From Polyangium mundeleinium (lineage in GTDB: Bacteria; Myxococcota_A; Polyangia; Polyangiales; Polyangiaceae), in NCBI RefSeq assembly GCF_028369105.1, contig NZ_JAQNDO010000001.1, forward strand, positions 7,534,501-7,598,500: a DNA stretch of 64,000 nt, written 5' to 3'. Under the pieces are notes generated by a model that saw only the letters and a list, made by a program, of their open reading frames with translations, was not told the DNA's origin and made no database searches. Positions 10,864 through 42,540 of the stretch are shown in pieces. The stretch's first letter is position 1. Each line of letters starts with the position of its first letter. A program made the position numbers and the translations under genes.

Positions 10864-13752
10864 ATGGATCGCCTGGTCATACGCGGCGCTCGCCAGCACA
10901 ACCTCAAGGACGTCAGCCTCTCCCTCCCGCGAGATCGCTTGGTCGTCATCACCGGCCCGAGCGGCTCGGGGAAGTCGTCGCTCGCGTTCGACACGATCTA
11001 CGCCGAGGGACAAAGGCGGTACGTCGAGTCCCTCTCGGCGTACGCGCGCCAGTTCCTCGAACAGCTCGCCAAGCCAGACGTCGAGTCGATCGAGGGGCTC
11101 TCGCCCGCGATCGCCATCGAGCAACGCGCGCTCGCGAAGAGCCCACGCTCCACGGTCGGGACCGTCACGGAAATCTCGGACTACCTGCGCCTGCTCTTCG
11201 CGCGCGTGGGCACGCCGCACTGCCCGAGCTGTGGCGCGCGGATCGAGGCGCAGACGGTGCAGCAGATCGTCGACCGCATCCTCGGCCTCGGCGAAGGCGC
11301 GCGCGTCACCGTGCTCGCCCCGATCGCCCGCGCCCGCCGCGGCGAGCTCAAGCTGGAGCTCGATCGCCTCCGCCGCGAAGGCTTCGTTCGCGCGCGGATC
11401 GATGGAGAGGTCGTCGATCTCGGCGACGAAATCGTCCTCGATCGGACGAAGGCGCACGACCTCGACGTGGTGATCGACCGCATCGTGGTGAAGGAGGGCG
11501 TGAAGGGCCGGGTCACAGACTCGGTCGAGCTCGCGTTGAAGCTCGGCGAAGGGCGGCTGCTCGCGGATCCGTCGACCGAGCGATCCCGCGCCGAGCCGAT
11601 CTGGATGAGCGAGCGCTTTGCCTGCATCGCCTGCGGCATCTCGCTGCCGCCGATCGAGCCGCGGATGTTCTCGTTCAACGGGCCGCACGGCGCCTGCCCT
11701 GCATGCGACGGCATCGGCTTCCGCACGCGGATCGATCCGGAGCGCGTTGTGCCGGATCCGAAGCGCACGCTGCGCGAGGGGGCGATCGTCGCGTGGGGGC
11801 GGCGCGGCTCGCTCGCGCTCTCGACGGAGACCGAGCGGGCGGTGAGCTCGCTCGGCGTGAACCCGGACGTGCCGTTCCGCGATCTCTCGGAGGCCGATCG
11901 CAAGGCGCTCCTCTTCGGGGCGGAGGCGACCGCGGCGAAGGGGCGGAAGAAGGCGAAGGAGGGCTACGAGGGGATCGTACCGCGGCTCGAGCGGCAGCTC
12001 GAACAGGGCGAGGGCGTCATCTCCGGCGAGGACGACGACGATCTCGACGACGACATCGCGGGCTCCGAGGACATCGGTCGGTACGCGGTCACGCGCGTGT
12101 GCGACGTCTGCAAGGGCAAGCGCCTGCGGGCCGAGGCGCTCGCGGTGAAGATCGCCGACAAGAACATCGCGGACATCGGCACGATGGCCCTGCGCACGGT
12201 GCGCTCGTTCCTGGAGACGATCGCGCACAAGGACGGGCCGCTGCAGCCGCGAGAGCGGGCGATCGCCGAGCCGCTCTTGCGCGCGGTGATCGCGCGGCTC
12301 GGCTTCCTCATCGACGTGGGCATCGACTACCTCACGCTCGATCGATCCGCGCAGACGCTCTCCGGCGGCGAGGGACAACGCATCCGGCTGGCGACGCAGA
12401 TCGGCGCGGCGCTCGTGGGCGTGCTGTACGTGCTCGACGAGCCGAGCGTGGGCCTGCACGCGAGGGACAACGCGCGGCTGCTCGAAGCGCTGCGCCGGCT
12501 CGTGGATCTTGGCAACAGCGTGGTCGTGGTCGAGCACGACAGGGACGCGATCCTCGCAGCCGATCACGTGGTCGACATGGGGCCGGGGGCTGGCTTGCAC
12601 GGCGGCAAGGTCGTGGCCGAGGGGACGCCGGCGGAGATCGCGAAGAACCCGGCGTCGGTCACCGGGCCCTGGCTCTCGGGCGACAAACACCTGCCGATCC
12701 CGACGAAACGACGCAAGGGCGACGGGCGCGTGATCAAGCTCGTCGGCGCGCGCGCGCACAACCTCACGGGCGTCAACGTGGAGATCCCGGTCGGCGTGCT
12801 CTGCGCGGTCACGGGCGTCTCCGGCTCGGGCAAGTCGAGCCTCATCGTGGACACGCTCCTGCCTGCGGCGCGCGCCGCGCTCTACCGCACGAGCGCGCCG
12901 ATCGGCGAGTGCGACGGCATCGAGGGCCTCTCGCACATCGACAAGGTCATCTCCATCGATCAGGCGCCCATCGGGCGGACGCCTCGGTCGAACCCGGCCA
13001 CGTACACCGGCGTCTTCAGCTTGCTGCGCGAGATCTACGCGGGTTTGCCCGAGTCACGCGCGCGCGGCTACAAGGCGGGACGCTTCTCGTTCAACGTGAA
13101 GGGCGGGCGCTGCGAGTCGTGTCAAGGCGATGGCGTTCTCCGCGTCGAGATGCACTTCCTGCCGGACGTGTTCGTCACGTGCGAGACCTGCGGCGGCAAA
13201 CGATACAACCGCGAGACGCTGGAGGTGCTCTACCGCGGCATGTCGATCGCCGACGCGCTCGAGCTCACGGTGGATCAGGCGATCGAGCAGTTCGAGGCGA
13301 TCCCGCGCGTGCGGGAGCGGCTCCTCGCCCTCGCGCGCGTGGGGCTCGGCTACATCCGGCTCGGACAACCGGCGACGACGATCTCCGGCGGCGAGGCGCA
13401 GCGCGTCAAGCTCGCCCGCGAGCTCGCGCGCAAGGCCACGGGGCGCACGCTGTATGTCCTCGACGAACCCACGACGGGCCTGCATTTCTCGGACATCGAG
13501 GTGCTCATCGGGGCGCTGTCGAGCTTGCGGGATGCGGGGAACACGGTCGTGGTGATCGAGCACAACCTCGACGTGGTCGCGTGCAGCGACTGGGTGATCG
13601 ACATGGGGCCGGAGGGAGGCGAGCGCGGCGGGTTCGTCGTGGCGTGCGGGCCGCCGGAGCACGTGGCCGGCGTCCCGGAATCGCATACCGGGCGGTACCT
13701 GCGCGAGGTCCTCGAGGTCGGGCGCAAGCGGCCGGGAAAACGCGCCAAATAA
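10864..13752 (+). CDS. uvrA: Excinuclease ABC subunit A
   Basis: 962 residues, the size of bacterial UvrA. It has Walker A GPSGSGKSS at 31-39 and a first zinc finger (CPSCG and later CIACG ... CPACD). The first signature is TLSGGEGQRIRLATQ, the second Walker A GVSGSGKSS, and the damage-binding zinc module has CESCQGDG ... CETCGG. The second signature is TISGGEAQRVKLAREL and Walker B is TLYVLDEPTTGLHF. UvrA recognises bulky DNA lesions and loads UvrB in nucleotide excision repair. The start is the ATG at 10864 (MDRLVIRGARQHNL), the normal family start. A run of acidic residues (EDDDDLDDD) sits after the first half's signature-proximal region, a lineage insertion. No uvrB or uvrC in the window. 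Confidence 0.97.
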   Translation: MDRLVIRGARQHNLKDVSLSLPRDRLVVITGPSGSGKSSLAFDTIYAEGQRRYVESLSAYARQFLEQLAKPDVESIEGLSPAIAIEQRALAKSPRSTVGTVTEISDYLRLLFARVGTPHCPSCGARIEAQTVQQIVDRILGLGEGARVTVLAPIARARRGELKLELDRLRREGFVRARIDGEVVDLGDEIVLDRTKAHDLDVVIDRIVVKEGVKGRVTDSVELALKLGEGRLLADPSTERSRAEPIWMSERFACIACGISLPPIEPRMFSFNGPHGACPACDGIGFRTRIDPERVVPDPKRTLREGAIVAWGRRGSLALSTETERAVSSLGVNPDVPFRDLSEADRKALLFGAEATAAKGRKKAKEGYEGIVPRLERQLEQGEGVISGEDDDDLDDDIAGSEDIGRYAVTRVCDVCKGKRLRAEALAVKIADKNIADIGTMALRTVRSFLETIAHKDGPLQPRERAIAEPLLRAVIARLGFLIDVGIDYLTLDRSAQTLSGGEGQRIRLATQIGAALVGVLYVLDEPSVGLHARDNARLLEALRRLVDLGNSVVVVEHDRDAILAADHVVDMGPGAGLHGGKVVAEGTPAEIAKNPASVTGPWLSGDKHLPIPTKRRKGDGRVIKLVGARAHNLTGVNVEIPVGVLCAVTGVSGSGKSSLIVDTLLPAARAALYRTSAPIGECDGIEGLSHIDKVISIDQAPIGRTPRSNPATYTGVFSLLREIYAGLPESRARGYKAGRFSFNVKGGRCESCQGDGVLRVEMHFLPDVFVTCETCGGKRYNRETLEVLYRGMSIADALELTVDQAIEQFEAIPRVRERLLALARVGLGYIRLGQPATTISGGEAQRVKLARELARKATGRTLYVLDEPTTGLHFSDIEVLIGALSSLRDAGNTVVVIEHNLDVVACSDWVIDMGPEGGERGGFVVACGPPEHVAGVPESHTGRYLREVLEVGRKRPGKRAK

Positions 13753-40158: not shown

Positions 40159-40728
40159 ATGAAACGCAAGCCCCGCCGCGCCACGCGGATTGTCGCTCTC
40201 GCCCTGGTCTCAATCGCCGCCCCCGTGCTCGTCTCAGGCTGCGGCGGCGGCATGGCCTCACCCCAGGCCGGAGGCGCAGCCGAAGCACGGTCCGACGACC
40301 CGGTGGCCGCACTCGATCAGGCCGAGCGCGAGGTGCAGCTCGCACTCGGTCTCTCCCCAGCCCGGCCCGCACAAGCAATGGCGCAGCAGCCCTTCGGCGC
40401 AACGCAGGCGCAGTCCCCCCAGCAGCCGACCTACGCCACGCCGCCCCCCACGCCCACAGCCACCATGCCCGCACCAGCCCCAGGCGAGGCGAAAGCCGAA
40501 GCCGAAGCAAAGCGCGCCGAGGCCGGGGCGCCCGCCTCGGACGAAGCCGCACCCGTCTCGTCAGACCCATGCATGACAGCATGCCGCGCCCTCGAATCGA
40601 TGGGCCGCGCCGCCACGCACCTCTGCGACCTCACCGGCGACGACGACACGCGCTGCGCAAACGCAAAGGATCGCGTACGCAGAGCCGAAGACCTCGTACG
40701 CCAGCGGTGCCCCGGCTGCGCAGGTTGA
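40159..40728 (+). CDS. Lipoprotein with C-terminal Cys pairs
   Basis: 189 residues. The signal ends at SGC after a hydrophobic core. The middle is low complexity (Ala/Pro/Gln). The last ~60 residues hold CMTACRALESMGRAATHLCD and RCANAKDRVRRAEDLVRQRC, probably a small disulfide-bonded helical hairpin. This C-x3-C pattern recurs in short myxobacterial lipoproteins. Function unknown. Confidence 0.7.
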   Translation: MKRKPRRATRIVALALVSIAAPVLVSGCGGGMASPQAGGAAEARSDDPVAALDQAEREVQLALGLSPARPAQAMAQQPFGATQAQSPQQPTYATPPPTPTATMPAPAPGEAKAEAEAKRAEAGAPASDEAAPVSSDPCMTACRALESMGRAATHLCDLTGDDDTRCANAKDRVRRAEDLVRQRCPGCAG

Positions 40729-40859
40729 GCGCAGCTCCGTGACAGTTTGAGCCGCAACGACCCTTCTTGGCGAAGGCGCCGCGCCGGGGTTTCACCCCGG
40801 ACCCCGACCAGGGGTTGTCCACCCCTGGACCCGGACCAGCGCAAGCGCTGGACGCGGGG

Positions 40860-40890
40860 TCGATGAACTGCGCTCCGCGCAGTTCATCGA
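40860..40890. repeat. Palindromic element A (GAACTGCG core)
   Basis: A 13-bp stem with the arms TCGATGAACTGCG and CGCAGTTCATCGA closes a 5-base CTCCG loop. It shares the GAACTGCG core and the form of element B at 41011-41041; where the outer arm bases differ, both arms have changed together. Confidence 0.8.
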
Positions 40891-41010
40891 ACAGCCAGGG
40901 TCAAGACCAGCGACGGGCCTGCCCACCCAGGCCACAGCGCTGCAGGCTCAGCCGGCAGCGTGCGCGTCGCCGGCTTGGAACCCACCTCCATGGTCTTGCC
41001 ACCGGCCCGT

Positions 41011-41041
41011 TGGAAGAACTGCGCACCGCGCAGTTCTTCCA
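41011..41041. repeat. Palindromic element B (GAACTGCG core)
   Basis: A 13-bp stem with the arms TGGAAGAACTGCG and CGCAGTTCTTCCA closes a 5-base CACCG loop. Relative to element A the outer arm has changed at two positions, and the opposite arm is changed to match, while the core is the same. Confidence 0.8.
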
Positions 41042-41136
41042 CCCTCGGTCCAGGCCGTGCCTGGTTCGGGTCGAGGGGCGAACAGCCCCCGCGGGGTCCG
41101 GGGCAGCGCCCCGGCACAGCGGCCCCAGGCACGAAC

Positions 41137-42540
41137 CTACCGCGCCACCACGAACGCCACGAACGCCACGAGCGCCACGAACGCGAGCCCGGCGGCGGCG
41201 TAGACGCCGAGCCGACGCTTTGGTGCTGCTTCCGCGAGTGTAGCTACGAGCGAACCGCTCTCGGATGTGGCGGACGGCGCGTCGGGGACTTCCTCGGACT
41301 TCTTGCGGAGGTAGTCGTCCCAGAGCACGACGGGCACTGCGCCTGACGATGAGGCGGCTTCTTCTGCGGCTGCTGCGATGAGCCCGGCGGGGATCGAGTC
41401 GGCGTGCGTCACGTCTTGCTCGTCGGGGGGCGCGGAGTCGCGCCCGAGGATGGGCAGACCGTGTGCGCCGGATGGGGGCATGCTGATCGGTGCTGGGCGC
41501 ACGGTGTCGCGCATGTCGAGCGGCACGGCGTAGGCCGAGGTCGTGTCGTCGATCATCGGCGGCGGCGCGAACTCGGTCGAGGTCACCTCGTCGGCGACGG
41601 CGTTCACCCCGGTGATGACGGGCAGGGGCGGAGGTGCGGGCGCGATCGATGACCGCTGCACCTTCACTGCGGCTGCGGGGGTCAGACCTGGCCGGTCGTC
41701 GCCGAGCAGCGGCGTCAGGGCTTCGAGCAGCTCGTCGGCGGTGCTCCATCGCTTGTCGACGTCGCGCTGGAGACAGCGGTCGACGACGGCGGCGATGCGC
41801 GGGTCGGCGTCGGGCATCAGGTCTGACAAACCGCGGATGCGGCCGGAGAGCACCTCGGCTGCGGCGCCGTAGGGGGTGAGACCCTGGAACACGCGGCGAC
41901 CGCTCAGCAGCTCGGCGAGCACCACGCCGACGGACCAGAGGTCGGTGCGGTGATCGACCGTCTTGAGCCCGCGCACCTGCTCGGGGCTCATGTATGCGGG
42001 CGACCCCATCGTCTTGCCGGTGGCCGTGAAGTCGGCGCCTTGCTGGAGCGTCTTGCTGACGCCGAAGTCGAGGATCTTGAGCACGGGGGCCTCGCCGCCG
42101 GGCTCCTCGTGGAGGAACAGGTTCGAGGGCTTCAGGTCGCGGTGCATCACGCGCGCTGCGTGCGCGGCCTTGAGGCCTCGTGCGGTCTCGGCGGCGATGC
42201 GCAGCGCGACGGCGGGGACGATCTTGCGCTCGCGATGGAGCTTCTCGCCCACGGTCTCGCCGCTCAGCATCTCCATCACCAGGAACGGATCGCCTGCGTC
42301 GGTTTGTCCGACGTCGTAGATCTCGACGACGTTGCGGTGGACGATGCGGCCGCAGGCGCGGGCCTCGCGGAGGAGCCTGAGGCGCGCGTCTTCGGAGGCG
42401 TCGAGGCCGCGGAGGAGCTTCAGCGCGACCTCGCGCTCGGTCAGCTCGTTGATTGCAGCCCATACGACGCCCATCCCCCCCTCCCCGAGGGGGCGCACGA
42501 GGCGGTATTTTCCACCAATCCTGGTGCCGGCTTTCATCAA
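41137..42540 (-). CDS. Membrane-anchored Ser/Thr protein kinase
   Basis: 467 residues. The kinase domain (~10-280) has GEGGMGVVWAA, VALKLL, HRDLKPSN, ILDFGVSK and GSPAYMSPEQ, with all catalytic residues visible. After it comes a Ser/Ala/Asp-rich linker and, at the extreme C-terminus, a single membrane helix (AAAGLAFVALVAFVAFVV), so the kinase faces the cytoplasm and has no large external domain. It is convergent with the lipoprotein at 40728 across the palindrome cluster. Targets might include the FHA activator and the phosphatase in this window, which is inference. Confidence 0.94.
   Translation of the reverse strand: MMKAGTRIGGKYRLVRPLGEGGMGVVWAAINELTEREVALKLLRGLDASEDARLRLLREARACGRIVHRNVVEIYDVGQTDAGDPFLVMEMLSGETVGEKLHRERKIVPAVALRIAAETARGLKAAHAARVMHRDLKPSNLFLHEEPGGEAPVLKILDFGVSKTLQQGADFTATGKTMGSPAYMSPEQVRGLKTVDHRTDLWSVGVVLAELLSGRRVFQGLTPYGAAAEVLSGRIRGLSDLMPDADPRIAAVVDRCLQRDVDKRWSTADELLEALTPLLGDDRPGLTPAAAVKVQRSSIAPAPPPLPVITGVNAVADEVTSTEFAPPPMIDDTTSAYAVPLDMRDTVRPAPISMPPSGAHGLPILGRDSAPPDEQDVTHADSIPAGLIAAAAEEAASSSGAVPVVLWDDYLRKKSEEVPDAPSATSESGSLVATLAEAAPKRRLGVYAAAGLAFVALVAFVAFVVAR

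Follow-up and report, generated by a model that had tools for sequence, protein, structure and literature searches.

The window, i.e. the whole 64,000-nucleotide stretch of Polyangium mundeleinium DNA analysed here, contains two palindromes that share a core and differ in the outer part of their arms, with both arms of each palindrome changing together. This locus raises the question of what kind of element carries such a pattern, and whether it denotes selection on a fold. The original prediction had described two elements with 13-bp arms, lying with other short stems in a span of 40784-41064 and forming a repeat family, possibly mobile or regulatory.

Anatomy of the element

Both palindromes are present and perfectly complementary (hairpins A and B; Table 1), with arms of 14+14 bp, instead of 13 bp, around a 3-nt loop. 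Their common core, GAACTGCG-N5-CGCAGTTC, has two matches in the window at up to 3 mismatches, both of them exact, against a mean of 0.83 in shuffled sequence at the same tolerance. The outer arms differ in a compensatory manner (TCGAT...ATCGA in A vs. TGGAA...TTCCA in B). A and B are, however, the left-hand and right-hand hairpin types in most of the 83 full copies found in the same genome, so the difference between them is by itself no evidence of independent compensation.

In this genome, the spacing between core sites is often exactly 151 bp, or a close value such as 145 bp, and A and B are therefore parts of one element. The alignment of the 30 best copies gives sharp borders with unrelated DNA beyond them, at about 40771 and 41124, and the span first proposed was thus too short. 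The shorter stems noticed beside A and B do exist; they are not separate neighbours, all of them belonging to a single element of eight hairpins in mirrored order (H1-H2-H3-H4 and H4'-H3'-H2'-H1', on either side of a centre of about 120 bp).

Table 1. Features of the window copy and its two flanking genes (window positions)
Feature	Position	Strand	Basis
Flanking ORF, stop 42 bp before the core	40159..40728	+	ORF list, script gene model
Whole core, 354 bp, two inverted four-hairpin halves around a centre	40771..41124	+	30 aligned copies, nhmmer matches
Hairpin H1, CCGGGG-TTTCA-CCCCGG	40784..40800	+	sequence, 83 copies
Hairpin H2, CCAGGGGT-TGTCC-ACCCCTGG	40808..40828	+	sequence, 83 copies
Hairpin H3, CCAGCG-CAAG-CGCTGG	40836..40851	+	83 copies
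Hairpin H4 (element A), 14-bp stem, loop TCC	40860..40890	+	sequence, 83 copies
Variable centre with GCAGCGCTGC	40891..41010	+	14.9% mean divergence from majority base
Hairpin H4' (element B), 14-bp stem, loop ACC	41011..41041	+	sequence, 83 copies
Hairpin H3', CCAGGC-CGT-GCCTGG	41050..41064	+	83 copies
Hairpin H2', GGGGC-GAACA-GCCCC	41075..41089	+	83 copies
Hairpin H1', CCGGGGC-AGC-GCCCCGG	41098..41114	+	83 copies
Convergent flanking ORF, stop 12 bp after the core	41137..42540	-	ORF list, script gene model

Compared with its own reverse complement, the window copy shows 71% identity; with the opposite strands of other full copies, identity is about 68-74%. Among the 83 full copies, the H4 loops are mainly TCC (42), GAT (25) and GGT (8), and the H4' loops GGA (38), ACC (27) and ATC (8). 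The right-side loop variants are the reverse complements of the left-side ones, which also holds for H1, H2 (whose loops mirror those of H2') and H3; the element therefore consists of two inverted copies of a four-hairpin half. Flipping of the loop within single hairpins was considered and rejected, the left loops being nearly all TCC, GAT or GGT and the right ones mostly their reverse complements. Loops of the flipped kind are so few (ATC 1 and GGA 1 on the left, TCC 1 on the right) that a fixed polarity of the two halves is favoured. The stems vary by whole pairs: the second pair of H1, whose commonest form elsewhere is CTGGGG-CTTTG-CCCCAG, is T-A in 64 copies, C-G in 18 and T-G in 1; the loop-closing pair of H2 is C-G in 63, T-A in 19 and C-A in 1; two outer pairs of H4' are G-C in 62 and T-A in 20, and G-C in 62 and A-T in 20.

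Other forms accompany this long type. Half elements also occur, and long variants (in L211, L215, L251 and L254) carry tandem repeats in the centre; by eye, these include a GGTACGAGGCCGTGCCTTGGA-like minisatellite (L211:9100-9300, and in the other three). Short type S elements (L285:4224, L263:601, L252:6819, L289:11914) have H1-H3 in common with the long type and a different H4 (GCATCGACCGC...), and the one in L285 has other terminal repeats (GAGGGTGTTCCAC). L243, L244, L248, L252, L253 and L285 contain composites in which two hairpin elements, a half and a full or two full ones, enclose a similar spacer (about 286-358 bp). A possible in-frame reading through the element was noted by eye; the 7-nt insertion of the L016 copy would break such a frame. 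At the window locus, the tail of the convergent gene adjoining the element contains a nine-base tandem repeat, CCACGAACG (41148-41183).

Copy number and distribution

The element is repeated, as had been predicted. The 13.25-Mb genome contains 177 exact core sites, while the reversed control pattern has 0; the core pattern equals its own reverse complement, and each site was counted on both strands. We analysed 90 stretches around 164 of these 177 sites and three further matches, together with 10 control stretches. A profile built from 30 seeds gave 158 matches in the 90 chosen stretches and 0 in the 10 controls.

Copies were also found in related genomes. A search limited to the exact core in 59 genomes, including that of P. 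mundeleinium, gave matches in 7 and none in 52. All five other Polyangium genomes (G001 to G005) were positive, with 37, 434, 250, 183 and 481 core sites, whereas the 53 relatives outside the genus had one core site in total, in one genome of another genus. In addition, a multi-taxon scan gave at least 120 stretches; among the 80 matches listed, 63 were from Polyangium and 17 from scattered taxa with one site each. Single chance-like sites aside, matches to the exact core came from Polyangium only. In a literature search based on titles and the beginnings of abstracts, with most subscription journals outside its range, we found no palindromic repeat from Polyangium or other myxobacteria, and neither Polyangium nor Sorangium, nor any word starting with myxo, occurs in the main text of a study on REPs (PMC3733652).

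Among the sites listed, clusters are spread over 1.3-10.0 Mb, with the highest density at 5-8 Mb of contig C1; the other 13 of the 177 sites all lie beyond 8.02 Mb, which partly accounts for the lower density in that part. The GC skew of the sampled stretches changes sign, most values being positive up to 4.5 Mb and most being negative from about 7.8 Mb on. From this switch, the dense zone probably lies around the terminus, opposite the presumed origin.

A resident insertion sequence with similar ends

At L215:8255-9265, a long variant forms a unit of 1011 bp whose terminal repeats (CTGAGCATGGGTCTCATC) are perfect and which is flanked by a 9-bp target duplication (CCTGGCCGG); the terminal repeats are close to the ends of a resident IS. 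The latter measures 1504 bp, ends in CTGAGCACTGGTCTCATCT and CTGAGCATTGGTTCCATCT, and encodes a 475-aa transposase that scores above the cut-off for NF033590 (IS4 family) and has Tn5-type Pfam domains. Four near-identical copies are present in the genome (L286:5321-6824, L235:7472-8975, L251:9656-11159, L402:1485-2988), three of them inside hairpin arrays and the fourth elsewhere. Two array-borne copies sit in H3-type hairpins, with the duplication GGCACGGCC or its complement; in L235, the IS is inserted at H3' with the duplication GGCCGTGCC. The L251 copy is bordered by H3' sequence on the left and by H2' sequence on the right, the two flanks (CCCCTGGC and CCCCTCGC) differing at one base. A related IS copy also interrupts a hairpin array in G002, and partial relatives occur in G001, G003 and G005. 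Moreover, a 2090-bp unit (L253:5037-7126) has IS-like ends, the same 9-bp target and, in place of the transposase, a 537-aa ORF for which no Pfam match was found.

Larger units with hairpin ends were seen at L256:6270-9130 and L262:4140-7260, with a common stretch beside their left hairpins; in L256, which has IS-like termini at both ends, this stretch falls within a Phage_integrase ORF. The presence of an integrase stretch beside a hairpin end, seen in just these two units, led us to consider an origin from a tyrosine recombinase.

Among the 83 full copies, 11 left and 11 right ends carry degenerate termini (at least 12 of 18 positions), against 0 of 166 control windows, and termini are recognisable at both ends in one copy. 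The element at L245:12144-12539 (396 bp) has two degenerate termini, and the best-ended copy of ordinary size, about 395 bp long, has an 18-bp terminal inverted repeat outside the core of about 350 bp. In the few copies of ordinary size that have two termini, we found no target duplication. The element shares, via L215, terminal inverted repeats with a transposase-bearing IS; it is small, lacks a transposase gene, and has many dispersed copies and empty sites in relatives, all of which are features of a MITE. Since one of 83 copies is two-ended and the sole clean duplication is on a long variant, we infer the transposition route of the ordinary copies, whose termini may never have existed. The family would have been mobilised in trans by the IS transposase, most copies then losing their termini and keeping the core beside gene tails. 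Of the two possibilities first raised, mobile or regulatory, a mobile origin was supported; any role at gene 3' ends is putative.

Same sites, different occupants

Full or nearly full copies at nine sites were compared with their counterparts in the sister species (18 comparisons, two of them ending early, at profile positions 290 and 315). G002, G003, G004 and G005 carry the element at the window site, and G001 lacks it. The element is inverted in G005 and G002, with an identity to the P. mundeleinium copy of 0.83 when flipped vs. 0.74 or 0.72 as is. At this site, the G003 element has 79% identity with its counterpart and 94% with another P. mundeleinium copy, while flanking genes are 89% and 95% identical between these two genomes at two sites. 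In 17 of the 18 comparisons, another P. mundeleinium copy matches the sister's element better than the same-site copy does, the number of such better-matching copies ranging from 5 to 80 of 83; three of the 17 are weak, since fewer than ten copies beat the ortholog. The exception, G003 at L234:18683, corresponds to plain vertical inheritance. Orientation is kept in 12 comparisons, including all six with G003 (the closest genome), clearly inverted in five, and ambiguous in one (L234:18683 in G005, 0.73 flipped vs. 0.75 as is).

Some sites are empty in part of the genus. At L264:11202, a single base separates two convergent stop codons in the empty G001 and G004, G002 has the long type inverted, G005 a shorter, type-S-like element, and G003 a copy that has lost its left terminus and whose intact core abuts a stop codon. 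L283:18009 is occupied in G003 and empty in G001, G002, G004 and G005, and L264:8926 is empty in G001. At five other loci (L283:7122, L245:6203, L245:12165, L234:2517, L234:10965), emptiness is unscorable in most species, the flank being rearranged or filled. Unexpectedly, the sites are common to the species and their occupants are not. One G003 copy coincides with two contig ends; such repeats may break draft assemblies.

Homologous recombination between sites may have rewritten the copies; since the element nearly equals its own reverse complement, this could take place in either orientation. The alternative would be repeated insertion at a few permissive gaps: shared occupancy would result from independent insertions, in either orientation, at permissive or preferred gaps between gene tails. 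The single nucleotide separating the convergent stops at L264:11202 in the empty genomes, and the variety of states at this site (type-S-like, long in G000, i.e. P. mundeleinium, and in G003, inverted long, empty), speak for such insertions. However, occupancy of the window site in four of five sister species is high for repeated hits, and all six G003 comparisons are in the same orientation, one of them with its sequence kept. We therefore regard independent insertion as a possible, although less probable, account of these sites.

Position relative to genes

The original prediction had named an enrichment at the 3' ends of genes as a point to check, and this was found. Gene neighbourhoods were taken from a home-made gene model (1334 genes) in which at least one call is wrong: at L264:11202, the model gives co-directional genes, but the ORF list contains a convergent 413-aa ORF ending at 11585; the context counts were kept as computed. 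Read by eye, this 413-aa ORF resembles an ABC-transporter ATPase. The 83 full copies are distributed as 36 between convergent genes, 24 and 13 in the two co-directional arrangements and 10 between divergent genes, while the 1234 gaps of the same stretches, element-bearing ones included, comprise 271 convergent, 671 co-directional and 292 divergent gaps. Where an element end has a neighbour in range, that neighbour presents its tail in 95 cases and its head in 43; at distances of up to 25 bp, the counts are 76 and 16. The left ends are clearly biased (54 tails vs. 15 heads), the right ends not significantly (41 vs. 28, p = 0.15). For half elements, a class that includes pieces split by the IS, the outer ends face tails in 30 of 36 scored cases and the inner ends in 17 of 26, a weaker trend in the same direction. 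Such a location can arise through the removal of insertions elsewhere.

Pairing and divergence of the stems

The covariation suggested by A and B was searched for in the 83 full copies (5336 pair cells). The stems are 99.1% Watson-Crick paired. Among 189 departures from the commonest pair, 142 are two-sided and still paired, and 47 are broken or one-sided; the arm changes are thus mostly compensated, as predicted. When the 3' partners were shuffled (500 trials, a test that ignores the relatedness of the copies), two-sided cells averaged 25 with a maximum of 39, and sliding the partners by 1-3 columns gave 3-17. For stems, the divergence from the majority base amounts to 3.3%; for linkers, centre and loops, it is about 4 to 6 times higher (11.8%, 14.9% and 18.6%, respectively). 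The constraint on the stems is real. The two results named beforehand as contrary to a conserved fold, a lack of further copies and uncompensated arm changes, were not obtained, copies being many and changes mostly compensated.

We also surveyed hairpins with the inner CTGCGC-N3-GCGCAG as the only query, the eight outer pairs playing no part in the search. This gave 417 hairpins, 225 in the P. mundeleinium stretches and 192 in the multi-taxon loci, which are mostly but not only from Polyangium. All eight outer pairs are perfect in 192 of the 225 and in 165 of the 192, respectively, while a ninth position pairs in just 14 and 5, so the stem stops at the eighth outer pair. The distinct perfect outer arms number only 7 in the former set and 13 in the latter, which implies few change events, later copied. 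Whole hairpins appear to be copied from one site to another. The formation and upkeep of perfect stems are ascribed to template switching in PMC8794818. As both processes can keep arms complementary, compensation alone is no proof of selection on the fold: the stems are indeed held paired, as the original prediction implied, but its reading of paired arms as a signature of selection went too far. The constraint may come from selection for termination or RNA protection, or from correction of the arms by template switching. Selection, possibly aided by such correction, is what we infer.

It could also be that the copies are neutral MITE debris without any role, those at gene tails being kept since other insertions were removed, and the stems staying paired via template-switch correction and paired masters. 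The few distinct outer arms would fit few masters, the process required is the one described in PMC8794818, and the wobble pairs give no RNA signal. On the other hand, simple copying is insufficient for the low divergence of the stems relative to the rest of the element, although arm correction might suffice; G003 keeps an intact core against the stop codon at L264:11202 despite the loss of one terminus; and the outer ends of half elements face tails, the inner ends less strongly so. Purely neutral debris is therefore rather unlikely, although not far behind independent insertion.

A structured non-coding RNA family is improbable. Besides the strong covariation, RNA folding gives a z-score of -12.4, with 0 of 100 shuffles as good, but DNA folding gives -11.2 and the best fold is one long hairpin, as the inverted halves impose. 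Among the 5336 cells, G.T occurs in 9 and A.C in 13, and no strand-specific RNA signal was found in these wobble pairs; with both intermediates rare, nothing points to RNA in particular. Furthermore, the Rfam search gave no match near a gathering score (4 matches at E up to 5, all far below, the best with 19.4 bits vs. 72).

Proposed origin and role

The reading that we favour, with a probability of about 60%, is that of a non-autonomous MITE-like repeat, mobilised by the IS, retained at gene tails and rewritten by ectopic gene conversion, which likely serves as a 3'-end cassette. The inverted arrangement of the halves means that transcription arriving from either flank runs into H1-H2-H3-H4 in the same order, which is consistent with a putative bidirectional 3'-end function; between convergent genes, such a cassette may act in termination or in the protection of mRNA. 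A scan of window positions 40600-41300 for intrinsic terminators, i.e. a GC hairpin with a T run behind it, gave none, so any termination at this copy would be of another kind. More tentatively, the copies could be interchangeable, direction-neutral 3'-end cassettes: the slots at gene tails would be inherited, while their transposon-derived occupants would be continually replaced and flipped through recombination between hundreds of copies, pairing and function being kept without sequence identity.

When repeat copies differ by compensatory changes, selection on a fold is the usual explanation. With hundreds of copies spread over six related genomes, selection, gene conversion and template switching can be told apart, and the pattern of same sites with different occupants is a direct handle on that separation. 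If the 3'-end role is true, a transposon became a genome-wide part for convergent transcription in very large and GC-rich genomes.

Comparison with known systems

The family resembles IS-mobilised MITEs and mobile insertion cassettes in its IS-like terminal repeats, its 9-bp duplication, the absence of a transposase inside, and the 2090-bp unit of L253 with IS-like ends and another ORF. Unlike IS-mobilised MITEs, most copies here have no recognisable termini and yet keep the core, which has eight mirrored hairpins, and related hairpins occur with other ends in the type S element of L285. The length of the duplication can be compared with that of IS4 family elements, which give duplications of about one helix turn according to PMC2266710.

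Descriptions of BOX, RUP, SPRITE and ERIC in an excerpt of PMC10969869 also concern small intergenic elements, some of them proposed as terminators or riboswitches; set alongside by description only, our family differs in its mirrored four-hairpin halves and the changing occupants at shared sites. The family differs from REPs in having no G.T excess. Correia-type elements are likewise small and intergenic.

The original prediction had also evoked a REP-associated transposase, and many extragenic copies, opposed hairpins, positions in convergent and co-directional gaps and use as IS targets are indeed properties of REPs, BIMEs and REPINs according to PMC3733652, PMC1525189 and PMC3116915. That this is a REP/REPIN family moved by a RAYT, the REP-associated tyrosine transposase, is nevertheless very improbable, since PF01797 has 0 matches in three genomes with 177 (P. 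mundeleinium), 183 (G004) and 434 (G002) core hairpins, and 1-2 matches each in G001, G003 and G005 only (three of the six genomes of the genus), no GTAG or CGTC is present at the 328 feet of H4 and H4', and the unit of about 350 bp is some ten times longer than one of 20-40 bp. REP/RAYT membership was rejected on two of these points, the absence of PF01797 from the P. mundeleinium genome and the lack of a 20-40 bp palindrome with a tagged foot. The frequency of GT pairing is named as support for an RNA role of REPs in PMC3733652.

The repeated entry of the IS into a hairpin repeat recalls the REP-targeting ISPsy8, ISPpu9 and ISRm19 described in PMC1525189. Here, in contrast, the IS is of the IS4/Tn5 type and enters H3-type hairpins. 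Bridge-RNA work on IS110/IS621 reportedly provides a link to REPs. A further difference from REP-targeting IS is that the terminal repeats of the Polyangium IS resemble those of the best-ended copies of the repeat.
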